From the NCBI GenBank assembly GCA_009777535.1, contig WRLP01000025.1, positions 1 through 40,518 of the forward strand: a stretch of 40,518 nucleotides of DNA, read 5' to 3'. The DNA comes from Treponema sp. Lineage in GTDB: Bacteria; Spirochaetota; Spirochaetia; Treponematales; Breznakiellaceae. The translations under genes and the position numbers were made by a program. The notes under the pieces are model-generated. The model had not been told where the DNA came from, made no database searches, and saw only the letters and a list, made by a program, of their open reading frames with translations. Positions 31,625 to 35,258 of the stretch are shown here, piece by piece (position 1 is the stretch's first letter; the number at the start of each line of letters is the position of its first letter).

Positions 31625-32794
31625 TTAACCCAATGCTTTTTTAAGGGCTTCCGTCTTGTCTGTTTTTTCCCATGAAAACTCTGACCGGCCAAAATGACCG
31701 TAAGATGCTGTTTTGCGGTAAATTGGCCGGCGAAGATCCAGGGTCTTTATGATTCCCGCAGGACTTAGGTCGAAAACCTTTGCCGCCGCGGCCTCAATTT
31801 TTGCTTCCGGAACCTTTGCGGTTCCAAATGCGTCGACCATTACGGAAACGGGGAAAGGAACTCCAATGGCATAGGCAAGCTGAATTTCGCAGCGTTCGGC
31901 GAGACCGGCGGCTACAATGTTTTTTGCCATATAACGCGCCATGTAGGCGGCTGAACGGTCAACCTTTGTCGGATCCTTGCCGGAAAAGGAACCGCCGCCG
32001 TGGCGTCCCATGCCGCCGTAGGTGTCTACGATTATCTTGCGGCCGGTAAGGCCGGTATCGCCGAAGGGGCCGCCGACAACAAAACGGCCGGTGGGATTAA
32101 TAAAGTACTTTGTCTTTTTGTCTAAAAGACCGGAAGGCTCCAGAATGGGTTTAATTATCTGTTCGATTATGCTTGATTCAATCTGTTTATGGTTAATATC
32201 AGGATCATGCTGATGCGAAACCACAACCGTATCAATGCGGACAGGCCGATACCCTTCGTATTCAACGGTAACCTGGCTTTTCGCATCGGGGCGCAGCCAT
32301 TTAATAGTTTTGTTTTTTCTTAATTTCGCGGCATGAAGCAGTATTTTATGCGCAAGCATAACAGGCATGGGCATAAGCTCTTTCGTTTCGTTACACGCAA
32401 AGCCAAACATCATGCCCTGATCGCCGGCTCCCTGCTGGCCTGCAAATTTTTTAAGCCCTTTGCCGGAAACGCCCTGGCTTATGTCCGGTGACTGATTGTG
32501 AATCATGCTCAAGACAGCCATGGATTTGCAGTCCAGCCCGTAGGAAGGATCTGTGTAGCCGATATCCTCGGCAACTTTACGAACCACCTGCTGAAAGTCG
32601 ACAAAAGTTTTTGTTGTTATCTCCCCGCCTATTAGCACCAGAGAAGTTGATGCAAAGGTTTCGCAGGCCACCCGGCTTTGCGGATCGTCTTTTAGGCACG
32701 CGTCCAGGATTGCATCGGAAATTTGATCGCAGAGCTTGTCGGGGTGTCCTTCCCCCACAGACTCGGAAGTAAAAAAATAACGCTTGTCTTTCAT
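31625..32794 (-). CDS. metK: S-adenosylmethionine synthetase
   Basis: 389 residues from the ATG at 32794, which has a ribosome site (TGGAGA); a longer frame to a TTG at 32806 is less likely. It makes SAM from methionine and ATP. Signatures are [20 protein letters not shown] at the N-terminus, [16 protein letters not shown], the P-loop-like [20 protein letters not shown], and the C-terminal [12 protein letters not shown]. Length is normal. It lies 12 bp downstream of the PII-like gene, so it may be read from the same transcript as the DUF1538 system; a functional tie is uncertain. Confidence 0.97.
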
Positions 32795-32806: not shown

Positions 32807-33616
32807 TTATTCAAAATTCAGGCCCATTACATCGTCTACCGGCATGGAAAAAACAAGACCGTGGGCATCTTTGTTAAGGCCGTGTTCTTCACAAATTGCC
32901 TGCATAATTTGGATTTTATTTTCCCTTTTGGTCAGAATAAAAATAATTTCCTTTTCGTCCTGAACCGATATGCCGAAAAATTTGACCGCCCCTTCGTGCG
33001 CCTGGCCGCGTGCCGACAATACCGTGCCGCCGGTGGCGCCGGCTTCACGGGCTGTTTTCATCAATTCATCACTGTAGCCCTGATTAACAATAGAGATGAT
33101 GAGATCGTGTGAAAATTCGCCTGCCACAATTCCTCCTTCGTCCCTGGGATCAATATTTCCATTGGATTTTGATCCCGGTTCTGCGGTGATTTTTTCATTT
33201 TTAAGTATGCTTTGTTTAAAGACCAGTAACACCGGATCGTTGATTGCTGAAAGGGGAATTGTAAAAGATATTCCCGCACCGGGGCTGATGTGCCTCAGTT
33301 TCTTTCTGACTTCTTTCATCAATACCGGAACCATTACCGCCTGTTCCAGGCAGATAATAACCGCCTTTTCTTCGGCGCCGACCCCCAACAGATCGAGTAT
33401 TTCAGAACTGGCGGTTCCTATTCCTTTGCAGTGAAAATGAAACCGCACTTTTTCTTCTGTAAAAATATTGGAAATAATATTGGCCTGGCTCCAGTCTACA
33501 ACAAAAAACACTAACTTTAGGGTCGGCAGGCCGGGGCTAACAGCCGTTTCTGCCGGAGTCTCATGCCTGGACGAGAGCTTATTAAAAAATTTTGAGATTA
33601 GGTTTTTTTTGGCCAC
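32807..33616 (-). CDS. Tandem PII-like signalling protein paired with DUF1538
   Basis: 269 residues. Residues 32-125 and 168-265 look like two copies of a PII-type ferredoxin-like fold. Each has a strand (KLVFFVVD / HDLIISIV), a G-rich turn (KGIGTASSE / GATGGTVLSARG), a strand near VIICLE / IIFILT, a helix, and a closing ISFTIPLSAI / LVFSMPVDDV. The second copy is closer to GlnB-like proteins. The link at 135-165 is polar. Such proteins bind nucleotides or small ligands and gate a transporter. The GTG start directly abuts the stop of the DUF1538 gene, and its ribosome site (GGTGGAG) lies inside that gene, so the two are translationally coupled. Confidence 0.75.
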   Translation of the reverse strand: MAKKNLISKFFNKLSSRHETPAETAVSPGLPTLKLVFFVVDWSQANIISNIFTEEKVRFHFHCKGIGTASSEILDLLGVGAEEKAVIICLEQAVMVPVLMKEVRKKLRHISPGAGISFTIPLSAINDPVLLVFKQSILKNEKITAEPGSKSNGNIDPRDEGGIVAGEFSHDLIISIVNQGYSDELMKTAREAGATGGTVLSARGQAHEGAVKFFGISVQDEKEIIFILTKRENKIQIMQAICEEHGLNKDAHGLVFSMPVDDVMGLNFE

Positions 33617-35173
33617 TTACTTCTCCACCTTAAAAACGGTTATTTTTCCCCAGTTAAAAACCTGTCCCGATGTACTGATGGCAGCTGTCTGCAGTTCTGT
33701 AAGGACGTTGGCTTCTTTCTGCTTCAGGCTGTAGATGAGTCCCATTAGCTGAATAACAACCAGGGGAGTCATGGCGACAATGGCGACAATGCCAAAGGCG
33801 TCTATCAGTAAATTGCCGCCCACGCCTTCGCAGGTTCCCATTGCGAACGGCAGCAGGAAGGTAGAAGTCATGGGACCGGAGGCGACGCCGCCTGAATCGA
33901 AAGCGATGCCGGTAAAAATACGGGGTACGAAAAAGGTAAGCAGTAAGGCGAAAAAATATCCCGGTATCAGAATATACATAATTGGAATACCGAATATTAT
34001 CCGGCACATGGTAAGCGTTAAAGCTGCGGCCATGCCGATGGAAAGCCCGCGGTTCATCATTTTAACAGTGATCGTTCCGCCTGAAATTTCCTCCACCTGC
34101 TTGTTCAGTACGTGAACTGCCGGTTCAGCGGCCACGATGAAGTAGCCAATCAGGGCTCCAAGCGGCAGTAAAATTAATCTGAAAGGCGATGACGCAATCT
34201 GGAATCCCAGGAGCCTGCCTACCGGAAAAAAGCCTACGTTTACACCGGCCAGAAAAAGCACCAGCCCAATCAGGGTATAGAAAAAACCTACGGCGATGCG
34301 TCCAAGGTGGTGCCGGTGGAAACGCCTGGTAATAAGCTGGAACACGGCGAAACATAACACTATGGCCCCTATGGTCATGCACATTTCTTTAAAATAATGG
34401 GGCAACTCAAGGGCAAAGTATTTTGCTACTTCTCGTGATGTGGCTGCATCTTTAAAAATATAAGATTGTACATTTAATGTATCCGGCTTATAAAAAATAC
34501 CCAACAGGAGAATTGCCATTATCGGCCCTACGCTGCACATCGCAACAATGCCAAAGCTGTCCTCCTGGGAATTTTTGTCGCTGCGAATGGAAGCCACACC
34601 CATGCCCAGAGCAAGCATAAACGGAACGGTAATGGGGCCGGTTGTAACACCGCCCGAATCAAAACCAACGGGAACAAAGGTGCTGTCAGAAAAATATGCA
34701 ACTGCAAAGACAATAATGTAAAAAATGATCAGTAAAACTGAAAGCCTGATCTTAAACAGCGCCCTGAGTACGGCGAGCATCATGAAAACTGCCACGCCCA
34801 CAGACACTGTTCCAATCAAAACAGTGGCCGGAATTGAAGGAGTCTGCCTTCCCAGTACCTGTAAATCCGGCTCGGCGATGGAAATGATGAATCCAATTAC
34901 CAATGTAACAGAGATGATGATAAATAAATTAGACCTTTTCGTCATCTCGATACCGATGCCTTCCCCCATTGGCATCAGGGCCATATCTGCCCCAAGGGTG
35001 AAAAAACCCATTCCAATAACGAGAAGCGCCGCTCCAGTTAGAAACATCAGTATTGTTCCTGCCGGCAAAGGAGTTAAAAAAACGCTGATAATCAGTACAA
35101 TTAAAGTAATGGGAAATACCGAAGTAAGAGCTTCGGCGATTTTTTCTTTTAATACCTTGTTTATTTTGTTCAT
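33617..35173 (-). CDS. DUF1538 membrane protein with duplicated halves (putative transporter)
   Basis: 518 residues with 12 or more hydrophobic segments. The two halves repeat the same motifs. AEPDLQVL and AEPAVHVL occur after long helices. GFDSGGVTTGPITVPFMLAL and AFDSGGVASGPMTSTFLLPF follow, then DSFGIVAM and DAFGIVAI. This shows an internal duplication with pseudo-twofold symmetry, as in many secondary transporters. The FDSGGV..GP.T loops are the likely substrate or ion site. The family has no established substrate that I know of. The gene is directly followed by the PII-like gene. A possible promoter is TTGATT, 17 bp, CATACT. Confidence 0.82.
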   Translation of the reverse strand: MNKINKVLKEKIAEALTSVFPITLIVLIISVFLTPLPAGTILMFLTGAALLVIGMGFFTLGADMALMPMGEGIGIEMTKRSNLFIIISVTLVIGFIISIAEPDLQVLGRQTPSIPATVLIGTVSVGVAVFMMLAVLRALFKIRLSVLLIIFYIIVFAVAYFSDSTFVPVGFDSGGVTTGPITVPFMLALGMGVASIRSDKNSQEDSFGIVAMCSVGPIMAILLLGIFYKPDTLNVQSYIFKDAATSREVAKYFALELPHYFKEMCMTIGAIVLCFAVFQLITRRFHRHHLGRIAVGFFYTLIGLVLFLAGVNVGFFPVGRLLGFQIASSPFRLILLPLGALIGYFIVAAEPAVHVLNKQVEEISGGTITVKMMNRGLSIGMAAALTLTMCRIIFGIPIMYILIPGYFFALLLTFFVPRIFTGIAFDSGGVASGPMTSTFLLPFAMGTCEGVGGNLLIDAFGIVAIVAMTPLVVIQLMGLIYSLKQKEANVLTELQTAAISTSGQVFNWGKITVFKVEK

Positions 35174-35215: not shown

Positions 35216-35258
35216 CAATAATCCCGCCCCCTTAAAGGGCGGGATTATTGTTTTTTTT
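35216..35258 (+). terminator. Strong plus-strand intrinsic terminator without an obvious gene
   Basis: CAATAATCCCGCCC (35216-35229) pairs perfectly with GGGCGGGATTATTG (35237-35250), 14 bp with a 7-nt loop, followed by eight T (35251-35258). This works only for plus-strand transcripts, yet the neighbours on both sides (DUF1538 and the ammonia-lyase) are on the minus strand. It may stop antisense transcription through the DUF1538 gene. The stem base also overlaps the candidate -35 of DUF1538. Confidence 0.75.

Follow-up and report, generated by a model that had tools for sequence, protein, structure and literature searches.

The only member of the DUF1538 family to have been studied is UmpAB of Halomonas zhaodongensis; measurements on everted vesicles, with its two proteins co-expressed, showed it to be a Na+(Li+,K+)/H+ antiporter (PMC5484666). 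UmpA and UmpB were reported to form a heterodimer of two 7-TM proteins, and UmpAB alone conferred antiport on E. coli, so that PII is not needed for transport (PMC5484666). The activity of UmpAB in E. coli without PII agrees with a modulating, not an indispensable, role of the partner, and the Halomonas paper makes no mention of a PII subunit (PMC5484666). In the literature on DUF1538, no description of a DUF1538–PII pair was found.

PII-type proteins paired with membrane transporters are represented by AmtB–GlnK and SbtA–SbtB. The locus described here lies in a stretch of 40,518 nucleotides of Treponema sp. DNA (contig WRLP01000025.1), the whole of which was analysed and is called the window, and it would belong to an already known kind, the PII-regulated transporter, with gating by PII as the presumed mode of action. 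It resembles AmtB–GlnK in that a PII gene stands beside the gene of a membrane transporter, on which its product probably acts. However, the two transporter families are unrelated, the window partner is a double PII protein whereas GlnK is a single-domain trimer, and the partner lacks both the Tyr51-type T-loop and the GDGK-type B-loop signatures. With SbtA–SbtB the locus shares the pairing of an ion-coupled transporter with a PII-like protein that is devoid of canonical signatures; in contrast, SbtB has one domain with loop features of its own, and SbtA has no sequence kinship to DUF1538. The pair consists of the following two genes:

Positions 33617–35173, minus strand: DUF1538 membrane protein of 518 aa, similar to UmpA and UmpB fused in one chain, with 14 predicted TM helices (7+7, antiparallel) and two matches to PF07556.
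Positions 32807–33616, minus strand: tandem PII-like protein, 269 aa.

By the ORF coordinates, the GTG start of the PII gene comes directly after the TAA stop of the DUF1538 gene, and a GGAG about 7 nt 5' of the GTG is a plausible ribosome site (bases upstream of the GTG: AAGGTGGAGAAGTAA). Such abutment makes translational coupling of the two genes probable. A previous description of the DNA, made from its letters and hereafter called the sequence-only reading, had placed both genes exactly and had correctly described them as abutting.

The main reading, to which we give a probability of about 0.6, is that this two-gene cassette encodes an antiporter for monovalent cations and H+ that is under PII control. 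Its membrane protein would be a single-chain relative of the UmpA–UmpB heterodimer, built of two antiparallel 7-helix halves, while the tandem PII-like protein would sit on the cytosolic face of the antiporter. Binding of a small cytosolic ligand by the PII-like protein might then open or close the antiporter, a picture modelled on the action of GlnK on AmtB and of SbtB on SbtA. The analysis shows the two folds, the repeats within each protein, the near-obligate pairing of the genes, the unvarying carboxylates and the lack of canonical PII signatures; that the two proteins bind physically, that gating occurs and in which direction, and the part played by a ligand and by oligomerization are what we infer.

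The membrane protein carries two repeats, each with two of the candidate carboxylates:

Positions 34493–35110, minus strand: DUF1538 repeat 1 (UmpA-like half), PF07556 E 6.6e-67.
Positions 33734–34363, minus strand: DUF1538 repeat 2 (UmpB-like half), PF07556 E 8.2e-67.
Positions 34871–34873, minus strand: E101, within the AEP motif of repeat 1, invariant in 123/123 proteins and at a helix break in the model.
Positions 34658–34660, minus strand: D172 of FDSGGVTTGP in repeat 1, invariant in 123/123 proteins and near a helix break.
Positions 34124–34126, minus strand: E350, within the AEP motif of repeat 2, invariant in 123/123 proteins and at a helix break in the model.
Positions 33896–33898, minus strand: D426 of FDSGGVASGP in repeat 2, invariant in 123/123 proteins and next to a helix break in the model.

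The two repeats score 225.3 and 225.0 bits against the curated PF07556 cut-off of 22.6, which places both in the family, and the halves also align with each other (blastp E 2e-23 with 30% identity; hhalign 99.8% probability, E 1e-29). The internal duplication that had been proposed for the membrane protein is thus borne out. Like UmpAB, it comprises two homologous DUF1538 units of 7 TM helices each, and its best NCBIfam matches are UmpA (5.6e-47) and UmpB (7.6e-40), each to its own half. It differs from UmpAB in being one fused chain and in scoring well under the equivalog cut-offs, with 160 bits against 490 for UmpA (NF041627) and 136.9 bits against 500 for UmpB (NF041628). By these profile matches, the window protein is classed as a member of the DUF1538 family and an UmpA-UmpB-like fusion, and not as an UmpAB equivalog. 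The sequence-only reading knew of no substrate for DUF1538 proteins and was mistaken on this point, given the antiport measured for UmpAB (PMC5484666). Cation/H+ antiport by the window protein would be carried over from UmpAB by analogy, and because the scores lie so far under the UmpA and UmpB cut-offs, its substrate may differ.

E101-P102, R137, D172, E350-P351 and D426 are unchanged in 123 aligned DUF1538 proteins, split and enlarged forms included (residues are counted from the ATG, which equals the numbering of alignment A1, made without Met1, plus one). The pairs E101 with D172 and E350 with D426, at or near broken helices, are likely candidates for the cation/proton sites. Outside this alignment, a divergent DUF1538 copy (L133:653-3345, genome G112) has E replacing D172; it is flanked by a single PII gene upstream and a double PII gene downstream and is the second copy in its genome. 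Ordinary and enlarged DUF1538 genes were also seen side by side at L137:7985-9991, in a genome of the window's genus (G094).

The distribution of charges fits a predicted topology of 7 helices per half, antiparallel, with cytosolic N and C termini. On average, 20.0 K+R fall in predicted inside loops and 3.75 in outside loops of equal total length, and the inside excess recurs in 116/116 DUF1538 sequences; the loops were drawn on the window sequence, which makes this a consistency test and not a blind prediction. A fold relative of the membrane protein was sought and dropped, as Foldseek with the DUF1538 model gave no match at E <0.001 in PDB or BFVD and the best VIA-align scores, Z 5.4 (CLC-7) and 4.9 (NCX_Mj), are too weak for use.

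As an alternative, the DUF1538 protein might be PII-gated and move another substrate, such as an anion, an organic acid or a divalent cation, with UmpAB antiport being a side activity or specific to Halomonas. Besides the low UmpA/UmpB scores, it is favoured by the testing of a single family member (PMC5484666) and by the lack of a solved structure clearly matching the predicted membrane fold. Nevertheless, the four carboxylates are common to fused, split and large forms, each window half best matches its own Ump subunit, and a sodium/hydrogen exchanger gene adjoins one DUF1538 locus, while three further loci have comparable genes no more than about 4 kb away. Another substrate is considered unlikely.

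Whether the pairing extends beyond the window can be judged from the co-occurrence of the two families. Among 149 genomes of the window's order, DUF1538 was found in 89 and the double-PII profile in 83, with both in 81. All 8 DUF1538 genomes missed by this profile carry a triple-PII protein, so that genomes with DUF1538 but without PII are apparent only, and a PII-type partner is present in 89/89 DUF1538 genomes of the sample (81 by the double-PII profile, 8 triple). Fisher's test on the profile-based table (81/8/2/58 genomes) gave p 7e-30, a statistic that, like the co-occurrence counts, takes genomes as independent and ignores shared ancestry. G028 and G147, which belong to a single genus, have a double PII but no DUF1538, a point against the main reading. 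Positions were checked in 87 DUF1538 genomes, G135 and G137 being left out, and 85 of these have the partner next to the transporter gene. For 79 genomes the positions are listed, and the coordinates show adjacency in 76 of them, to which G038 can be added when a contig end is allowed for. The remaining two, G027 and G071, have the partner on another contig.

In a wider set of 80 loci, mostly from Bacillota and with Spirochaetota and one Synergistaceae genome, PII lies directly downstream in 77, which is 77/79 of those usable (L040 ends at a contig end); L036 and L044 have no PII nearby. Single-linkage clustering of the neighbours in this set found no third recurrent family. Three alphaproteobacterial plasmid records matched both proteins, and two annotated records, plasmids of Methylocystis rosea and Chelativorans, have separate umpA and umpB genes followed by a single P-II gene. 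Annotation by NCBI's pipeline already gives such neighbours the name 'P-II family nitrogen regulator'.

The pairing of DUF1538 with PII is real and near-obligate. The coupling of a PII-type regulator to a transporter, as envisaged by the sequence-only reading, is supported, and rare co-occurrence, named beforehand as a possible refutation, was not what the genomes showed. With a partner in 89/89 DUF1538 genomes, the data suggest that the whole transporter family is under the control of an overlooked sensor subunit.

Several neighbouring genes were recorded at these loci. The orphan double-PII genes of G028 and G147 (L125 and L126) adjoin an apparent nucleosidase gene, and the unlinked double-PII gene of G027 (L131:2516-4865) is immediately followed by a gene for a Na+/H+ antiporter of the NhaC type (PF03553). 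The gene just upstream of DUF1538 in L038 (L038:3-1271) codes for a Na+/H+ exchanger with a PTS EIIA domain fused to it, and L035, L048 and L050 have related genes at a distance of up to about 4 kb.

The PII-like protein might also be no gate at all. GlnK is sequestered by AmtB, and following this precedent, the PII-like protein could be a reporter that is held at the membrane by the transporter and released to another target upon a change in ions or pH. The partners that are unlinked (G027, G071) or orphaned (G028, G147) agree with such a role, as does the NhaC-type antiporter gene next to the partner in G027. However, adjacency is near-constant and no third recurrent partner gene was found in the wider set, and we regard a reporter as rather improbable.

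The soluble partner comprises two domains:

Positions 33203–33526, minus strand: PII-like domain 1, the diverged N half, recognized by hhalign to the C half (98.6%), by strands and helices of the model and by alignment.
Positions 32819–33118, minus strand: PII-like domain 2, the C half, with PF00543 E 4.7e-8 and matches to PDB P-II chains (best E 7e-8).

Only the C half reaches the Pfam P-II cut-off. The N half aligns with the C half by profile (hhalign E 6e-16), and its own profile matches PDB P-II chains with a best E of 0.0025. The AlphaFold2 model (mean pLDDT 72) has a beta-alpha-beta-beta-alpha-beta core in each half, its Foldseek matches include structures of GlnK and SbtB, and in VIA-align the N half scored Z 8.2 with PotN and 8.1 with GlnK1. 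Model, structural matches and the P-II profile matches of both halves thus all indicate the ferredoxin-like fold of PII, and the repeated PII-like fold that had been claimed for the soluble protein is confirmed. PotN, PstA/DarA and other PII-like proteins have the fold in common with it (VIA-align Z 7.4 to 8.2), but they are single-domain and lie outside the DUF1538-linked lineage.

With two domains per chain, the partner departs from the canonical homotrimer of one-domain chains. None of 109 partner proteins, the window's included, carries the PROSITE T-loop signature Y-[KR]-G-[AS]-[AE]-Y, and none carries the C-terminal B-loop signature with GDG[KR], which a canonical control fragment did match. 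Instead, the N half keeps G.GTA..EiLD.LG in the T-loop region and G.GIAF in the B-loop region, while the C half keeps GA.GGT..aRG, with EKE; as far as the aligned sequences tell, these motifs are the DUF1538-linked PII lineage's own. Neither a further PII above the Pfam cut-off nor the ammonium transporter AmtB (PF00909) was found in the window genome (92.8% complete). That the partner is an ordinary nitrogen-regulatory PII (GlnB/GlnK) standing by chance beside a membrane gene, as its P-II assignment by Pfam and by NCBI annotation could imply, is extremely improbable and was rejected, given the missing AmtB, the absence of PII signatures from all 109 partners and an adjacency kept across spirochaetes, Bacillota and alphaproteobacteria.

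The number of PII domains varies. A fused double PII is the rule, and a fused triple also occurs; a single PII domain is found beside split or half-size DUF1538 (L114, L115, L127, L129, L130), and PII takes the form of two separate genes at L059, L108 and L128. The triple PII-like protein has about 370–390 aa (371–387 in seven with an assigned start), and its gene lies behind an enlarged DUF1538 gene with soluble inserts or a truncated one (L120–L124, L134, L135, L142). Its three domains match the C-half profile of the double PII with 88%, 97% and 95% probability, compared with 1.9% for a membrane-protein control, and the triple form is possibly a single-chain PII trimer. An approximate tree built from 76 domains places single-domain proteins and the second of two separate genes with the C halves, and the first of two genes with the N halves, save for a poorly supported corner. 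This suggests that PII was duplicated once, long ago, and that fusion or fission came later; the C half would be closer to the ancestral type.

The sequence-only reading had further imagined a double sensor matched to a transporter of pseudo-twofold symmetry. This is not supported and was rejected, as PII copies range from 1 to 3 and the membrane halves are predicted to be antiparallel. In an antiparallel arrangement the pseudo-twofold axis runs within the plane of the membrane, so that the halves would offer no equivalent cytosolic docking faces, and since the number of PII domains does not track the two membrane halves, the symmetry argument is removed.

A broader version of the proposal, possible but held with some reserve, is that antiporters of the UmpAB type generally have a PII-like subunit of one to three domains as a third component, which has been overlooked, the triple being a natural single-chain PII trimer and the ligand and its site being unlike those of canonical PII. 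If true, PII-type control would reach beyond ammonium and bicarbonate uptake to sodium, potassium and proton balance, and a regulatory subunit would have to be added to the two components known from the single study of the UmpAB family. Chains with one, two and three PII domains would then amount to a natural experiment in which a symmetric trimeric sensor has been turned asymmetric.

As for ligands and other forms of control, c-di-AMP was set aside, because diadenylate cyclase occurs in 140/149 genomes with DUF1538 present or absent and does not discriminate. SAM, hinted at by the adjoining metK, was also dropped, as this synteny was seen in the window's family alone and metK is no recurrent neighbour in the wider set. 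Riboswitch control of the pair was rejected, with no Rfam family found in the window and the only cis-regulatory Rfam matches at 24 related loci being T-box and glmS on the opposite strand. The metK gene itself (window positions 31625–32794, minus strand) starts 12 nt beyond the PII stop with a GGAG of its own, and the window's family includes five more genomes that retain this neighbourhood, in some of which a small lipoprotein-like gene intervenes. On the other side of the pair, a strong terminator-like hairpin of 14 pairs followed by T8 (window positions 35216–35250, plus strand) separates the DUF1538 gene from an aromatic amino acid lyase gene.
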